Assembly: GCA_016342495.1 (NCBI GenBank)
Contig: JAEIOG010000057.1
Location: 1-33,608, forward strand
DNA length: 33,608 nucleotides
Source of the DNA: Phycisphaerae bacterium
GTDB lineage: Bacteria; Planctomycetota; Phycisphaerae; Sedimentisphaerales; SM23-30
Direction of reading: 5' to 3'
Position numbers and translations under genes: made by a program. Shown one piece after another: positions 3,393-33,171 of this stretch. The notes beneath the pieces were generated by a model, which was given only the letters and a program-made list of their open reading frames with translations, was not told the DNA's origin and did not search any database. The first letter of the stretch is position 1. Each line of letters opens with the position of its first letter.

Positions 3393-5096
<1,704 letters not shown>

Positions 5097-5573: not shown

Positions 5574-5631
5574 GGCATAAAGTACAAGGCAGAAGATTTT
5601 TTGGTTTGTGCAATTTATAGGAGTAAATACA

Positions 5632-7242
5632 ATGGCCAAACAGATGATGTTTGATGATAATGCCCGCCGAGAGATGCTTGATGGTTTAAAGCAACTTGCC
5701 GCGGCAGTAAAAGTGACAATGGGCCCAACCGGTCGTAATGTAGTTTTGCAAAAAAGTTTTGGCAGCCCACGGGTTACCAAAGATGGTGTCAGTGTTTCCA
5801 AAGAAATTGAATTAGCTGAGCCATTTAAGAATATGGGTGCTAAGATGGTTAATGAAGTTGCCAGCAAGACATCTGATGTCGCTGGCGATGGCACAACCAC
5901 CGCTACGGTTTTAGCTGAAGCTATCTTTACCGAAGGTTTGAAATATCTGGCAGCTGGTGCTAATCCTGTTGCTTTGCAGCGTGGTATCACAAAAGCTGTG
6001 GGTGTGGTTTCAGATTCGATTACCAAGATGAGCAAAAAGATTAAAGGCCCTAAAGACATCGCAAAAGTCGGTGCTATTTCGGCTAATAATGATCCTGCTA
6101 TTGGCAAACTTCTTGCTGAAGCAATGGAAAAAGTTGGTTCTAATGGTGTGATCACTGTTGAAGAAGGCCAAACCATGCAGACCGAACTGGAAGTCGTAGA
6201 AGGTATGCAGTTTGATAAAGGCTATCTGTCACCATATTTTATTACTAAGACTGATACGATGGAAGCGGTCATGGAAGACTGTTGCATCCTGATTCATGAA
6301 AAGAAGATTTCCAATCTTCGTGAACTTGTTCCACTGCTGGAAAAGATCGCTCATTCTGGCAAACCTTTGGTTATTATTGCTGAAGATGTCGAAGGTGATG
6401 CCCTTGCCGGCTTGGTTATTAACCGTTTACGTGGCACATTGAAAGTTGCAGCTGTAAAAGCTCCCGGTTTTGGTGATCGTCGCAAGGCAATGCTGGAAGA
6501 TATCGCGGTATTAACCGGCGGTCAGCTGATCAGTGAAGATTTGGGTCTGAAACTGGAAAATATCGAAGTCGCTCAACTTGGTCAGGCGCGTCGTATTGTC
6601 ATCAGCAAAGACAATACCACTATTATTGAAGGTGCTGGCAAGAAAAAAGATATTAAAGCTCGCCTTGAACTGTTAAGTGCCATGATCGAAAGAACTACCA
6701 GTGATTATGACCGTGAAAAATTGCAGGAACGTTTAGCTAAACTTTCTGGTGGTGTAGCTGTCGTAAGAGCCGGTGCTGCAACCGAAACTGAAATGAAAGA
6801 GCGCAAGGATTTGCTTGAAGACGCATTGCATGCAACTCGTGCAGCAGCCGAAGAAGGCGTTGTACCTGGCGGTGGTGTTACTTATTTGCGTTGTATCGAT
6901 GCGGTACAAAAAGCCAAAGCTGAAATCACAGGTGATATGACTTTTGGTTTTGATATTATCGCCAAGGCATTGACCTGGCCAGCGACTCAGATCGTTGATA
7001 ACAGTGGCATTGATGGTGCGACTGTTGTAGCTGAGATTCTGGAGATGAAGGGTGCGATGGGTTATAATGCTGCTACCGGTCAATATGTTGATATGATCGA
7101 AGCTGGAATTATTGATCCGGCTAAGGTTACTCGCAGTGCTCTGGTTAATGCTGCTTCGGTATCAGGATTGATGCTGACAACAAATGTATTGGTTACTGAT
7201 TTGAAAGATGATGATGAACCAGTAGCTGGTGCGATAAGTTAA
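5632..7242 (+). CDS. groEL: chaperonin GroEL, paralogue 2 (no GGM tail)
   Basis: This is a 536-residue GroEL with the complete signature set: [47 protein letters not shown] and [12 protein letters not shown]. It ends in an acidic tail, [14 protein letters not shown], without Gly-Gly-Met repeats. Its apical domain differs from paralogue 1 (for example [18 protein letters not shown]), so client specificity may differ. ATG at 5632 is chosen because TAGGAG lies 8 bases upstream; an open extension to GTG at 5608 reads through that ribosome site. It sits directly after groES and ends in a terminator. Confidence 0.97.
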
Positions 7243-19051: not shown

Positions 19052-19129
19052 CCTGACCTGGTAATGCCAAGTAGTAGCGACGGAATAGCCAAAATCACAC
19101 GCCGTTCTGGGATGGGCATAAGTAATTGT

Positions 19130-19157
19130 TTGACAATTATCGCTTTGGTATTACAAT
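19130..19157 (+). promoter_or_regulatory. sigma-70 promoter of the acyltransferase gene
   Basis: TTGACA at 19130-19135, 16 bases, TACAAT at 19152-19157. The start site near 19164 gives a leader of about 38 nt to the ATG at 19202. The promoter lies inside the longer open frame that begins at 19064, which argues against that upstream start. Confidence 0.7.
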
Positions 19158-19201
19158 TATTGTCCTTGTTAGCTATAAATTATTCCCCTTTAAGAGTTTA
19201 T

Positions 19202-20170
19202 ATGAGCAAAAAAGTCCGTAAAAAGCGAAAAAAACCTAATAAATTTGTCGATTATATGGTCTATCTGGCCTTGCGGCTGGTTTCGGTCTTTATTCAGATT
19301 CCTGATACCGCCACTTCGGTACGGATGGCTCGGGCATTGGGTTCTGGGCTCTGGGCAATATATAAACGCGGCAGAATCCGGGCTATTGATAATCTGCGTC
19401 AGAGTTTTCCCGACAAAGATGACAGTTGGTATGAAGCGACCGCTAAACGCAGTTTAGAGCAGATAGCGATGCTGGCCTTTGACAGCCTGCGCTGTACGCG
19501 ATTGATTACCCGGTCGACCTGGAAACAGCATATCGTGCTGGAAGATAATCTGGCGGCGGCCCTGAAGATTATTATGGGCGGCAGGGGTGTGATCATGGTT
19601 ACGGGACATTATGGGAATTTCGAGGTTTTGGGCTATGTGCTGGCTACTTTAGGGTTGGAATCCTATTCGGTGGCCCGCCCAATCGATAATCCTTATATTA
19701 ATCAGTATTTGTTGGGAGTGCGGGAGAATCAGGGCCAGATTATTGTCGATAAGAAAGGTGCCACCGAACAGATATTAAATATTCTGGAACAGGGATCAAC
19801 TTTGAGTTTTGTAGCAGATCAAAACGCGGGGAAAAAAGGCATTTTTGTCGACTTTTTTGGCCGAAAAGCATCAACTTATAAGAGTATCGGCCTGCTGGCG
19901 ATGCAATATGATTTACCGATTGTGGTGGGCTATTGTCGCCGCATTGGTGATGAGTATAAGTTTAGTGTTGGTGTGGAAGAAGTTATTTATCCGGATCAGT
20001 GGAAACAGCAAGATCGTCCGCTGGACTGGATTACCCAACAATACACCGCCGCGATTGAGTCATTTATCCGTAAGGACCCCAGCCAATACTGGTGGATACA
20101 TCGCCGGTGGAAGACCCGGCCCCCGGCGGAACGCAGGGCAGCCAAGGCTAAAGAAAAACAAAGTATCTAA
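19202..20170 (+). CDS. LpxL/HtrB-type lipid A acyltransferase family protein
   Basis: This is a 322-residue protein. A lysine/arginine-rich start (SKKVRKKRKKPNKF) is followed by a membrane-anchoring hydrophobic segment (VYLALRLVSVFIQIP). The acyltransferase core shows GVIMVTGHYGNFEVLGYVL, with the catalytic H-x4-E, then VADQNAGKKGIFVDFFG and ending QYWWIHRRWKTRPP. The family transfers a secondary acyl chain to lipid A precursors at the inner membrane. I chose ATG at 19202. The frame is open from 19064, but that start touches a repeat and the extension contains the promoter. If the extension is real, it adds 46 residues with a hydrophobic stretch. Confidence 0.9.
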   Translation: MSKKVRKKRKKPNKFVDYMVYLALRLVSVFIQIPDTATSVRMARALGSGLWAIYKRGRIRAIDNLRQSFPDKDDSWYEATAKRSLEQIAMLAFDSLRCTRLITRSTWKQHIVLEDNLAAALKIIMGGRGVIMVTGHYGNFEVLGYVLATLGLESYSVARPIDNPYINQYLLGVRENQGQIIVDKKGATEQILNILEQGSTLSFVADQNAGKKGIFVDFFGRKASTYKSIGLLAMQYDLPIVVGYCRRIGDEYKFSVGVEEVIYPDQWKQQDRPLDWITQQYTAAIESFIRKDPSQYWWIHRRWKTRPPAERRAAKAKEKQSI

Positions 20171-20248
20171 TTTGTTGTGTAATAAAGATTTATGTTTTAG
20201 CGTTATATAGTTATTCATATTATTTATTCTTACTGAAAGGAGTTCTGT

Positions 20249-21361
20249 ATGAAGAAGTTAACTCTTTTATTGACAGGTATTTGCATTTTAGGTACGGTTG
20301 GTTTTGGTCAGGTGAGGAAGGTCAGGCCAGTGCAGGTGCCGGTGATTGAATTTGGTCAGGAGGCACCGGATTTTAATCTGCCAAAGCTCAATTTTGTGGA
20401 AGAAAATGGTAAGAAAATCGGTAAAGTTTCGTCTGAAATGGTTAAATTATCGAGTTTTCGGGGAAAAAAGCCGGTGGTTTTGATCTTTACCAGCTATACA
20501 TGACCACCTTTCGCCCGTCAAGCACCGATGGTCGAAAAGTTGTACGTGTCGTACAAAGATAAAGCGGAATTCTTTTTAGTTTACATATCTGAAGCTCATG
20601 CTAACCTGTTGAAAAAGGGTGAGAAAAAGCCTGAAAATACCGAGGAACGTGCGATTTTAGCGTCAAAATGTCTGGAAAATTGCAAGTTGACTATGCCAGC
20701 AGTTATAGATGGGATGGATGGTAAGGTCGAGAAGATGTATGCGGGCTGGCCTGATAGATTTTGTGTGGTGGATCTGGATGGCAAGGTGGCCTATTATAGC
20801 GGGCGAGGGCCCTGGGGGTTTAAGCCTGATGAAACTGAGAAGTATTTGAAGGAATTATTAGCCGGGAGTGGTCGGATTACGCCATCGGTTTATGATGATT
20901 ATGGAGATGCAGTTGATGGTCTGCGATGTTCATTTGGACTAAACTTAGATAGTATTGAAGAAGGCAAGCCCATTGTTTCGGTGGTACGGATAAAGAATGT
21001 TTCCAAAAAAGCGATCAGCTTTAATGATGTGCCGATTTATCGAGGGAATGATGTTTCGATGAAAGATGCCGAAGGTGTTGATATCCAGCGTCGAAATATG
21101 GTGAATTATTATAAGCCTGAACAGGCCAGCAGAAAGATTACGATTGAGCCGGGCAAAGTTTATGAAATTATGATAAAAGGTGAGCTGGGCAAAATAGAAT
21201 ATGAAGCTAAGGATGTGATTTTTAAGACTGTTGATGTTGAATTGAAATTGCCGGTTGGCAAAGAGCTGACGGCTTGCTGGAGTAAAGAAATTACGATAAT
21301 GGGTGAGAAGCCCAAGACGGTAAAGCTGAAGAGTAAGCCATTGACTTTTGTGGTTGAATGA
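20249..21361 (+). CDS. deiodinase-like selenoprotein (in-frame UGA at residue 85)
   Basis: The 370 codons include one TGA at 20501-20503. Residues 1-20 are a signal peptide (KKLTLLLTGICILGTVGFG). Residues 35-185 form a thioredoxin-like domain: GQEAPDFNLP, LSSFRGKKPVVLIFTSYT, U85, PPFARQAPMVEKLY, FFLVYISEAHA, and later DGMDGKVEKMYAGWPDRFCVVD. The T-U-P-P-F motif and the YIxEAH block are those of iodothyronine deiodinases and their bacterial relatives. Residues about 190-370 are a beta-rich domain I do not recognise. The frame is uninterrupted on both sides of the UGA, and AAAGGAG precedes the ATG. Read as a stop, it would leave an 84-residue stub and a startless remainder. A terminator follows. 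The substrate is unknown; a redox or dehalogenase role is possible. Confidence 0.88.
20502..20556 (+). promoter_or_regulatory. possible SECIS region 3' of the UGA codon
   Basis: Three pairings are visible just after the UGA. They are GACCA (20502-20506)/TGGTC (20529-20533), CTTTCG (20508-20513)/CGAAAAG (20533-20539), and the 7-bp hairpin TTGTACG-tgt-CGTACAA (20540-20556). The first two overlap and are alternatives. Bacterial SECIS elements lie in this coding stretch, but none can be chosen by eye. Confidence 0.35.
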
Positions 21362-21369
21362 TTTTTATG

Positions 21370-21395
21370 AGCCTCTAGATTCGGAGGCTTTTTTT
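21370..21395 (+). terminator. Rho-independent terminator
   Basis: AGCCTC, loop TAGATTCG, GAGGCT, then a run of seven T. It begins 8 bp after the selenoprotein stop. Confidence 0.92.
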
Positions 21396-26634: not shown

Positions 26635-26761
26635 AGAAAATCAGGTAATTATCGCCTAAAATGGCCATTATATGTTGAATTTCCTTTATATTCTCGCTAA
26701 AATGGATATTGATGTGTATCTGTTAAATCTCTCTTTTTACATTTCTTGGAGGAAGTATAAA

Positions 26762-29524
26762 ATGGTTACCCCCCGAACTATCAGAATTTCACTATCGTTT
26801 ATTTTCCTGTTTTTAGTGATCTGTTTTATCAGCAGTGCTACTGTTTATGCCGACAGTTATGCCCTGGATCTGGATGGCAGTGGTGATTATATCGAAACCA
26901 GCCAAACCGCTACCCAACTGGGCATCGAAGGCAATAAACCCAAGACTATCTGCCTATGGGTTTATACTCGTGCTTTCAATAATGGTGGGATATATGATAT
27001 CGGCAATCATTCCACAGCTCAGAATTTTGCGATTCGCACTCTCACCAGCAACAACGTATGGCGTATTGAATATTATGCCTATTATCGGGATTATACTATT
27101 GATTCTCTGAATAAGTGGGTGCATTTTGCTCAAACTTATGATGGAACGACCGCCAGAGTTTATGCTAATGGTAAACTTATTGATGAATGGACTTTGAATC
27201 TAAATATCACCGATTCGATTCCTTTGCGGATTGGAAACTGGGGTGGTTCTACCTTAAATGGTATTATGGATAATGTTCATTTGTATGATACTGCCCTGGA
27301 CGAAATGGATATTGTAATGGATATGTATGGGACTATCGCTACCAGTTTGATTGCGGATTGGGAATTTGACGAGGGTAGCGGCACGGTCGCAGTTGATCCG
27401 GTTGGTGGGTTTGATGGCACGCTGACCGGTGACCCGCAATGGGTTGTCCCTGACCGTGTTGATCCAGATGCTCAACCGGATTTGTTGCTTCGTACTGATA
27501 ATGAACAGGGGTATCTTGGCGATGATATTTATAATGATATATCGGGCCAGACTAAAACTCAAACTATGGGTTTAGCTGAAACAGCAATTTATGATATTGT
27601 TCTGCAGAATGACAGTTCGGCGATTGATGGCATTACTGTTACTGCTTCGCCAGCGGATGCTAACTGGGATGTTAAATATATTCTGGTCAATACTCAGATT
27701 GATATTACCGCTGAATTAACGGATATGGCTGGTTATGAATTTGCCTTAGATGGCGGAGCGATCTTGCCGATACAAATTCAGGTAAAACCAACTCCGCTGG
27801 GTATTGCATCTTCTGCGACAAAAGATATTACACTAACGGCAACTTCGGTTATCGACCCGGCTAAGACCGATCAGGTTAGAGCTTCGACCACTTATCAAAC
27901 AGGCTTTAGTCATCCTAAAACTATGACCTATACCACTAGTGCTGATTTTGCTGGGGGAATGGCTGTTGGAGTTGAATATACAACCGTGCCTGATCAGCTT
28001 CAGCTTAAAGAACAGTCTTCAACATTTCCTTATATCTGGGTGCCTAATAGTAATGAAGGCACAGTTTCGAAGGTTGATACCCGCACAGGCAAAGAACTTG
28101 GCCGCTATCGTACCGGGCCTGCGACCAATGGTAATCCATCCCGAACAACCGTTGACCTTTATGGCAATTGCTGGGTAGGTAACAGGAATACTGGCTCTGC
28201 GGTAAAAATCGGCTTACTTGAAAATGGTCAGTTTATGGACCGCAACTATAATGGCATAGTCGAAACATCACGCGATGTCAATGGCGATGGCAATATTACC
28301 GGTTCTGAAATTCTGCCATGGGGCCATGATGAATGTGTGCTTTATGAAGTGATACTCATCAACAATGTTGAAACCAGCAATGTTCCTGGCTTATATACAG
28401 GTGCCTATGTAAATAATGCTGATGACCCGGGTGTTCGTGGTATTGCTGTTGATGCAAATAATAATGTATGGCTGTGCGGGCATAATACCCATCAGTTCTA
28501 TTATGTTGATGGGCAAACCGCTCAGATTCTGAAAAAGATTGATGTCAGCACTCCGGGTACTTCGCGGCATACCTCTTATGGTGCTGTTGTTGATAAAAAT
28601 GGAATACTCTGGTCTTCTGGTCAGGAATTTAAAGATGTTGTTCGTTTTGACCCTTCTACTGATACTTATACTACAATTGAATTGGGTCATTACAGTTATG
28701 GCATGGGGCTTGATCAGTATGGTCATCTTTTTGTTTCAGGATGGACTGATACCAGACTTACTCGTATTGATATTAATACAGGAGTTATTGACTGGAGCAT
28801 AACAGGCAAATATCAGACTCGCGGTGTGGCATGTACCGATGATGGTGATGTATGGCTGGCGAATACCGGTCTGGATAATGTCTCGCGTTTCACAAATGAT
28901 GGTGTATTTATTACAGATATCGCATTGCCCGCTGGCTCAAATCCGACAGGGGTTTCGGTTGATGATGAAGGCTTTGTATGGGTGGTGAATTATGGCAATG
29001 GTTATATCCATAAAATTGACCCCGATACCAATTCCATTGTTCTTTCTAAAAATGTGGTTAATACCACTCATTATGGTTATAGTGATATGACAGGTACTGT
29101 TTCACATAGTTCAACTACCCGAATAGGTTTGTGGTCTAATGTTTTCAATACTTATACACCTGATACTCAATGGGGTCTGGTTTCCTGGAATAGTTCAGAA
29201 CCTAAGGGGTCATTAGTGACAGTGAAAATCAGAAGCTCTAATGATCGGCGAAACTGGTCAGTCTGGGAAGATGTTACAAATTACGCTGCTGCCAGGCGGA
29301 CACCGAATGGGCGCTATCTTGAAGTTCAGGCATCCCTGCAAAGCTTTGACCCGACAGCGGCTCCGATTTTGTATGATCTTTCCATTACAGCATTTCCGTG
29401 TTGTGGCGACCCGGATCATCCGTTCCCAATGGGAGATATTAATTATGATTGCAGTGTAGATATTTTTGATTTTGGGATTCTGGCTAACAATTGGCTAATG
29501 CAAACAGCCAGCGATATTGATTGA
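26762..29524 (+). CDS. large secreted LamG / beta-propeller protein with dockerin-like end
   Basis: The 920 residues begin with a signal peptide (ISLSFIFLFLVICFISSATV, cleaved near YA-DS). A concanavalin-like LamG domain follows (about 32-215; YALDLDGSGDYIET, WVHFAQTYDGTTARVYANG). Next is a beta-sandwich stretch. Residues 440-790 are a Vgb/NHL-like beta-propeller with repeats such as RGIAVDANNNVWLCG, DGDVWLANTG and DDEGFVWVVNYGNGYIHKI; one blade holds an EF-hand-like DVNGDGNITGSE. After a further sandwich the end reads GDINYDCSVDIFDFGILANNW, one dockerin-like calcium repeat typical of planctomycete exoproteins. It probably binds sugars or surfaces. GGAGG precedes ATG 26762; earlier in-frame starts lack a ribosome site. 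Confidence 0.88.
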   Translation: MVTPRTIRISLSFIFLFLVICFISSATVYADSYALDLDGSGDYIETSQTATQLGIEGNKPKTICLWVYTRAFNNGGIYDIGNHSTAQNFAIRTLTSNNVWRIEYYAYYRDYTIDSLNKWVHFAQTYDGTTARVYANGKLIDEWTLNLNITDSIPLRIGNWGGSTLNGIMDNVHLYDTALDEMDIVMDMYGTIATSLIADWEFDEGSGTVAVDPVGGFDGTLTGDPQWVVPDRVDPDAQPDLLLRTDNEQGYLGDDIYNDISGQTKTQTMGLAETAIYDIVLQNDSSAIDGITVTASPADANWDVKYILVNTQIDITAELTDMAGYEFALDGGAILPIQIQVKPTPLGIASSATKDITLTATSVIDPAKTDQVRASTTYQTGFSHPKTMTYTTSADFAGGMAVGVEYTTVPDQLQLKEQSSTFPYIWVPNSNEGTVSKVDTRTGKELGRYRTGPATNGNPSRTTVDLYGNCWVGNRNTGSAVKIGLLENGQFMDRNYNGIVETSRDVNGDGNITGSEILPWGHDECVLYEVILINNVETSNVPGLYTGAYVNNADDPGVRGIAVDANNNVWLCGHNTHQFYYVDGQTAQILKKIDVSTPGTSRHTSYGAVVDKNGILWSSGQEFKDVVRFDPSTDTYTTIELGHYSYGMGLDQYGHLFVSGWTDTRLTRIDINTGVIDWSITGKYQTRGVACTDDGDVWLANTGLDNVSRFTNDGVFITDIALPAGSNPTGVSVDDEGFVWVVNYGNGYIHKIDPDTNSIVLSKNVVNTTHYGYSDMTGTVSHSSTTRIGLWSNVFNTYTPDTQWGLVSWNSSEPKGSLVTVKIRSSNDRRNWSVWEDVTNYAAARRTPNGRYLEVQASLQSFDPTAAPILYDLSITAFPCCGDPDHPFPMGDINYDCSVDIFDFGILANNWLMQTASDID

Positions 29525-32343: not shown

Positions 32344-33171
32344 TTACACGTTACTTATTTCAGAAGATTCAGTTTTAATTTTTTTGCCAAAGCAGATTGC
32401 GTTTTCTGGGCAGACTTCTATGCATCTTGCGCAGGAGAAACAATCGGGTTTGATATTTTTGCCATCCAGAATGGCATCCATTGCCAGTGAAGGACAGGCT
32501 TGAGTACAAGCTCGGCATTTTGTGCATTTGTCTGTTTTGATCTGAATACGATTAAAGCTGAAATTTTCAGCCAACCAACCAGTTAGTCCAAATGGGCAGA
32601 ACAGGTGGCACCATGGGCGATAGATGAAAGTACTCAAAGCCAGAATAAGGAAGATAAAAATTCCGGCGGCGATACCTATCATTGTCGGGTGGAATATTTT
32701 AAATGGATCAATAATTCCCACAATATCCATGCCAATAGCAAATGCTAATGCTGCCAAGACAACTAGCGATATTATGCGGATGGAGTTGGTCAGTGCAAAT
32801 GAAAGTTTTTTAGGTTTTAATAAGGGTTTTTCGCGTTTTTTGCCTTTGGCTAATTCAAAAATCAAATCCTGAAGCGTTCCAAATTGGCATCCCCATGAAC
32901 AGATAAATTTATTAGCGAAAATAACCATTAGTGTAAAAACAATAAAAGCAATTAGTCGTGGCGGGAAGATTACACCTTTGTCGGCAAAAAGCGTGATGGC
33001 GTCTTTGACTGTGCCCATTGGGTTCGGATCTGCGCCAAGAATTACTCCAAAGAGAATTAAAGAGGTTAGTAATAATTTCCAGCGATTGGAACTGGTGATT
33101 TTACTTTTTTTTATCATTGCTAATATGACAGAAAGCCAGATGACCCATAGTGTAAATTTTACCAGAATCAA
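32344..33171 (-). CDS. membrane 4Fe-4S ferredoxin-type protein (NapH/CcoG-like)
   Basis: At least 275 residues. About five membrane helices surround two cysteine motifs of the NapH/NosR type: FICSWGCQFGTLQDL near residue 90 and YRPWCHLFCPFGL near 190. Two classical 4Fe-4S ferredoxin motifs follow: CTKCRACTQACP and CFSCARCIEVCP. It should pass electrons at the membrane; the partner is unknown. The start is unclear: 33171 is a TTG without a ribosome site, and the first ATG in frame (33117) falls after the first helix. The frame stays open to a TGA at 33303, reading TWLNCYEDFQKPLSSLKLTD, again without ATG. The 5' end may be lost to the adjacent IS66-type gene. Confidence 0.85.
   Translation of the reverse strand: MILVKFTLWVIWLSVILAMIKKSKITSSNRWKLLLTSLILFGVILGADPNPMGTVKDAITLFADKGVIFPPRLIAFIVFTLMVIFANKFICSWGCQFGTLQDLIFELAKGKKREKPLLKPKKLSFALTNSIRIISLVVLAALAFAIGMDIVGIIDPFKIFHPTMIGIAAGIFIFLILALSTFIYRPWCHLFCPFGLTGWLAENFSFNRIQIKTDKCTKCRACTQACPSLAMDAILDGKNIKPDCFSCARCIEVCPENAICFGKKIKTESSEISNV

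Follow-up and report, generated by a model that had tools for sequence, protein, structure and literature searches.

Deiodinase-like selenoproteins were reported in bacteria in 2005, in the Sargasso Sea selenoproteome (PMC1088965); a bacterial selenocysteine (Sec)-containing deiodinase core has been known since then and is not new. A 2026 review places these proteins among the families of largely unknown biological function (PMC13188914), and UxxC is the motif listed for the family in reviews (PMC13188914, PMC9312934). The animal enzymes are better described. Roles have been assigned to the residues of Dio3, including Trp207 and His219 (PMC7506546), several of Ser167, Thr169, Sec170, Tyr197, Glu200 and His202 are needed for Dio3 or Dio1 activity (PMC7506546, PMC9141512), and DIO1 requires its proximal Cys for turnover with GSH (PMC9141512). 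Here we analyse a gene in a 33,608-nucleotide stretch of DNA from a Phycisphaerae bacterium (the window, meaning the whole stretch). On sequence grounds its product is almost certainly a Sec-containing protein of the deiodinase family. It is probably best explained as an exported selenoprotein of the deiodinase branch, in which a Sec selenolate reductase would be supplied with electrons from a membrane cytochrome system or from thiols.

A first-pass annotation had described one reading frame with a ribosome site, a signal peptide and a terminator, broken by a single TGA. Our analysis agrees: the TGA at the position of Sec85 is the sole interruption of the frame, and reading it as U yields a protein of 370 residues (Table 1). 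Translation likewise places the TGA in the redox position of a Thr-U-Pro-Pro-Phe motif, with U85 inside FTSYTUPPF and the YISEAHA block at residues 112-118. The match to PF00837 (T4_deiodinase; residues 69-201, E 2.1e-22) spans both sides of the TGA, which excludes a chance open frame. An altered genetic code was considered and ruled out by the TGA stops of rhs, rodA, a 950-aa ORF (26672-29524) and the selenoprotein gene itself. The annotation had argued the same from rhs, gpsA and the selenoprotein gene; gpsA in fact ends in TAA, and the argument remains valid because the four genes named above end in TGA. The proposed export is supported by the hydrophobic, signal-like N-terminal stretch, through which the product would cross the inner membrane.

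Table 1 Features of the selenoprotein locus (window coordinates)
Feature	Position	Strand	Basis or remark
Upstream lipid A acyltransferase family gene	19064..20170	+	PF03279; in window and G012
Shine-Dalgarno-like ribosome site AAAGGAG	20236..20242	+	Read in sequence, just before ATG 20249
Selenoprotein gene, 370 aa, Sec = residue 85, true TGA stop at end	20249..21361	+	
Signal-peptide-like N-terminus MKKLTLLLTGICILGTVGFGQ	20249..20311	+	Hydropathy and translation
Deiodinase-family thioredoxin-fold domain, residues about 36-203	20354..20857	+	PF00837 and 9h48 matches
In-frame TGA = Sec85 in S-Y-T-U-P-P-F	20501..20503	+	Homologue comparison
SECIS-type hairpin UUUCG.CCGUC[AAGCACC]GAUGG.UCGAAA	20509..20537	+	Apical loop begins 16 nt after UGA and contains G
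Cys141, candidate resolving Cys for Sec	20669..20671	+	Conserved in at least 90% of homologues; role inferred
C-terminal BsuPI-like beta-sandwich	20873..21358	+	PF12690 matches of homologous domains, model pLDDT 82, 3isy fold match
Intrinsic-terminator-like hairpin followed by T-tail	21369..21390	+	8 pairs

The genome that contains the window (G000; 5.4 Mb, 95% complete) was searched family by family. SelA (467.6 bits), SelB (336.2 bits) and tRNA-Sec (73.6 bits; confirmed by ARAGORN) were present together with two SelD genes, at C10 and C205, the latter being itself a UGA protein, with UGA as the Sec codon of CAGU. All four of selA, selB, selC and selD, whose absence the annotation had considered fatal to its reading, are therefore encoded. 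Conservation of the codon was another point on which that reading had been made to depend. The column aligned with residue 85 holds TGA in 16 of 16 members of the closest clade (window included) and in 54 wider homologues, 70 sequences altogether, and a Cys codon (TGC or TGT) in 11 homologues. In a sample of the phylum, 125 of 392 genomes gave a match, mostly with exactly one in-frame TGA. These results bear directly on the reading that takes the TGA for a sequencing error or for the true stop of a pseudogene, with the downstream ORF (20528-21361) translated alone. A mechanical ORF of 277 aa does begin at the ATG at 20528, but all 15 clade relatives and the 54 wider homologues carry TGA at the same codon, the remaining homologues carry Cys there, and the genome possesses complete Sec machinery. 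A recurring sequencing error is excluded because the TGA is kept at one column in 70 sequences and replaced by Cys in 11. We regard the error or pseudogene reading as refuted in practice and its probability as close to negligible. The identity proposed earlier, a selenoprotein of the deiodinase family, is thus borne out by the PF00837 match, the Sec machinery and the conserved UGA/Cys column, and the predicted decoding of UGA 85 as Sec through the SelA, SelB, tRNA-Sec and SelD of this genome, with a hairpin directly after the codon, is strongly supported.

The nucleotides after the UGA, which the annotation had recommended searching for a SECIS element, form a hairpin with G in its loop. Taken alone it is not significant (P about 0.08-0.12 by synonymous-codon randomisation). 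In the 70 Sec sequences taken together, the longest stem that closes a loop containing G has a mean of 5.9 pairs, where 3.8 would be expected (z about 15, a value that is not a true probability as the sequences are kin); 13 other positions of the same genes, used as a control, gave z from -2.2 to 1.8. As the compared sequences are related, more weight falls on the positional control as an argument for the hairpin. These figures come from the synonymous-codon test and a looser, position-controlled rule; under a strict rule, by which the G had to be the first or second nucleotide of the loop, the window fared poorly, and that rule was dropped. In close relatives (L138 and L146/L147) the hairpin keeps its register and is built from other base pairs, and the cytochrome-fused relatives described below have weak hairpins. 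The Cys homologues (L065-L075) retain a signal after the Cys codon (z 4.5, n=11), which may be a SECIS relic; the family signal may therefore be partly inherited. An Rfam covariance search of 18-24 kb of the window returned no RNA family.

The N-terminal domain scores 80 bits against PF00837, for which the curated cut-off is 27. The AhpC-TSA and Redoxin models match too, the former with 36 bits. The best PDB sequence matches are two solved deiodinase catalytic cores, 9h48 (mouse DIO2; E 1.6e-15) and 4tr3 (E 4.9e-12); 9h48 is also the top fold match (E 1.4e-11), followed by ResA/DsbE structures. The protein has both S-x-T-U-x-P-F (Sec/Cys) and the Y-x-x-E-A-H block, a network that is invariant in the homologue alignment. 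In alignment with Dio3, Ser167, Thr169, Sec170, Tyr197, Glu200, His202, Arg225 and Arg260 correspond to S82, T84, U85, Y112, E115, H117, R134 and R170, and Arg275 aligns with the R of GRGP. Cys141 lines up with no Cys of the mammalian enzymes and may be the resolving Cys for Sec85.

These kept residues, together with deiodinase 2 as the best match in both sequence and fold, would fit an exported reductive dehalogenase for small organic compounds carrying iodine or bromine, with a selenenyl halide as the intermediate, as in the animal deiodinases; a low-potential multihaem donor of the kind found in the relatives would suit such an enzyme as well. Several features argue in the other direction. 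The proximal Cys that DIO1 requires (Dio3 Cys168, two residues before Sec) is Tyr83 in the window and Cys in 0 of 81 sequences, the omega-loop Trp (equivalent to Trp207) is absent in 16 of 16 clade members, and the equivalent of His219 is absent from the window protein. Of the 54 wider Sec homologues, 28 do have a Trp after EAH. Thyroid-type deiodination is not supported, since proximal Cys, omega-loop Trp and His219 equivalent are all missing, and thyroid hormone is absent from bacteria. We consider a dehalogenase unlikely, and a reductase of peroxide-like substrates is favoured over dehalogenation because the features for deiodinase turnover and thyroid hormone binding are those that this sequence lacks.

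The remaining C-terminal part had been called an unrecognised domain. That description stands insofar as the window domain has no match in Pfam (PF12690 included) or NCBIfam, and it fails insofar as the domain probably has a BsuPI-like Ig fold, one that occurs in many proteins of the class. AlphaFold, given residues 209-370 on their own and 14 sequences, produced a beta-sandwich (pLDDT 82, pTM 0.78) whose first Foldseek match was BsuPI (3isy, E 5.6e-4). In the VIA comparison 3isy had Z 8.6 (rmsd 3.4, 114 aligned), but other Ig-like folds come close to it in score; a metalloendopeptidase domain gave 9.1-9.4, and the Ig domains of transglutaminases gave about 7. Sister domains match Pfam BsuPI (PF12690) weakly, with E 7.6e-4 and 0.012 and scores of 16-19.9 against a cut-off of 22.9. 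A profile search of 397 genomes of the class located the domain in 23, as part of other types of large protein, and therefore it is a mobile beta-sandwich, probably BsuPI-like, not a deiodinase-specific novelty. It could serve as a non-catalytic spacer or docking module.

The 16 clade members belong to the same order (161 genomes), and their clade has tree support of 100/100. Three consist of the Sec domain alone, three (the window, G791 and G776) add the BsuPI-like domain, and ten carry in addition six CXXCH motifs of conserved spacing. The CXXCH motifs of these fused relatives match the Pfam cytochrome c3-like or doubled CXXCH models below cut-offs only; in G012 the doubled CXXCH model of NCBIfam exceeds its cut-off. 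The window protein is without the haem part, and a separate hexahaem module was found neither in its own genome nor in seven relatives, a searched set that held no positive control. In G012, a member of the window's own family, the fused form is preceded by the same lipid A acyltransferase-family gene that precedes the window selenoprotein gene, which makes the two loci look like orthologues; the haem module would have been lost or gained between them, in a direction that the tree does not settle. BsuPI-like plus multi-CXXCH proteins also occur without a Sec domain (L108 and L112, in G626 and G659), where the preceding gene is conserved and encodes a twin-arginine-like leader.

Fusion to a c-type cytochrome, with the ResA/DsbE fold matches and the predicted export of the protein, could be read as the mark of a thiol-disulfide reductase of cytochrome c maturation (ResA/CcmG-like) whose fused cytochrome is a former client. 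Such a role is rather improbable, for the motif is UPPF, with neither CxxC nor UxxC, and the deiodinase matches outrank ResA. Other family members are fused to EF-hand, PDZ, thioredoxin or, weakly, AhpD/CMD-type domains, and this variety of partners argues for a general redox module. A narrower form of our preferred explanation is an exported peroxide reductase (GPx/peroxiredoxin-like) for oxidant defence, in which a hydroperoxide would oxidise Sec85 to the selenenic acid, Cys141 would resolve it and a thiol or cytochrome would reduce the enzyme again. The AhpC-TSA and Redoxin matches, the conserved Cys141, the thioredoxin and AhpD/CMD-type fusions and the existence of Cys versions of the enzyme are all consistent with this version. 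The PF00837 score, however, lies far above that of AhpC-TSA, and the invariant, deiodinase-typical Y-x-x-E-A-H network has no clear purpose in a peroxidase. We hold a dedicated peroxide reductase to be a serious candidate that falls somewhat short of an even chance.

Analysis of the gene neighbourhoods points to a possible electron donor. A NapH-like Fe-S membrane protein (Fer4_5) is encoded directly upstream, on the same strand, in seven genomes with the fused gene. A NapH-like gene lies near tRNA-Sec in eleven genomes, the window's own included, and five of the eleven have the order tRNA-Sec, small membrane protein, NapH-like gene, fused selenoprotein gene. G764 is an exception to this arrangement, and in G782, G785 and G773, where the contigs are short, tRNA-Sec was not detected. 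In the window's own genome the NapH-like orthologue (51% identity to the query) adjoins tRNA-Sec on contig 35 (L156 5312-7699); the window selenoprotein gene itself stands outside any such cluster. By guilt by association, these arrangements suggest that electrons may pass from the NapH-like protein through the cytochrome to Sec. A quinol-linked NapH-like Fe-S protein, a hexahaem cytochrome c and a Sec site, encoded with tRNA-Sec, might together form a new electron-transfer system, a proposal that we advance tentatively. The open-access literature yielded no report of the BsuPI-like and cytochrome fusions or of the tRNA-Sec/NapH-like cluster, and no paper in which a deiodinase is joined with a multihaem cytochrome.

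Several further arrangements were observed in these surroundings. tRNA-Sec, the NapH-like gene and the small membrane protein gene recur together (L134, L138, L142-L144, L156, L157-L159, L161 and L162), and in this order their proximity is seen even without an adjacent selenoprotein gene. A thioredoxin-like gene (FWDMEQRPSRYCI type) lies downstream of the fused selenoprotein gene in L139, L140, L141 and L144, on the opposite strand and convergent to it. The window also encodes a second polyferredoxin membrane protein of a different type (Fer4_5 + Fer4_9; 32344-33171, minus strand), 11 kb from the selenoprotein gene, and two different groEL genes (3420-5096 and 5608-7242) with a single groES between them, upstream of dnaJ and grpE.

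Under our preferred explanation of an exported Sec reductase, the selenolate, held in the S-x-T-U / Y-x-x-E-A-H network, would attack an electrophile, be it a peroxide, a halogenated compound or a disulfide. The oxidised Sec would probably be resolved by the family-conserved Cys141 and then reduced again, either by an exported thiol or with membrane electrons, which the relatives would draw from the fused six-haem cytochrome and from the NapH-like Fe-S protein encoded next to it. For this electron-fed mechanism as a whole we put the chances at about even. If the tentatively proposed electron-transfer system exists, a deiodinase-fold selenoenzyme would be reduced by haems instead of thiols, and the window version would have lost the haem module or never gained it. 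The cytochrome-fused relatives beside tRNA-Sec and the NapH-like gene provide a concrete hypothesis for electron donor and cell location. Fusion and neighbourhood together make the function of the bacterial deiodinase-like selenoproteins, which have been without one for 20 years, directly testable, with a bearing on the ancestral chemistry of the animal deiodinases.

Comparison with known systems serves to place the window protein. With the bacterial deiodinase-like selenoproteins (PF00837) it shares the deiodinase-type thioredoxin fold, Sec in the redox position, a SECIS-type hairpin and the existence of Cys homologues; it differs in having UPPF instead of UxxC, an added BsuPI-like domain and a shortened omega-loop without Trp, and in having relatives fused to a hexahaem cytochrome c. 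Residues 36-200 match the C-terminal half of the NCBIfam 'deiodinase family protein' model (NF038285, deiodinase_rel; E 2e-41), but the score of 142.6 is below the cut-off of 250 and the N-terminal half of the 347-position model is missing in the window. The C-terminal domain is a beta-sandwich similar to the Bacillus intracellular proteinase inhibitor BsuPI (PF12690, 3isy), whereas here it is a presumably exported, appended module that does not reach the PF12690 model and whose likeness to the inhibitor would be one of fold. Vertebrate DIO1-3 (4tr3, 9h48) share the overall fold and have Ser, Thr, Sec-Pro-Pro-Phe, Tyr, Glu-Ala-His and Arg at the matching positions. In contrast to these enzymes, the window protein lacks equivalents of the proximal Cys (Tyr83), His219 and Trp207, and has instead a bacteria-specific Cys141, a predicted signal peptide for export and an extra domain at the C-terminus.
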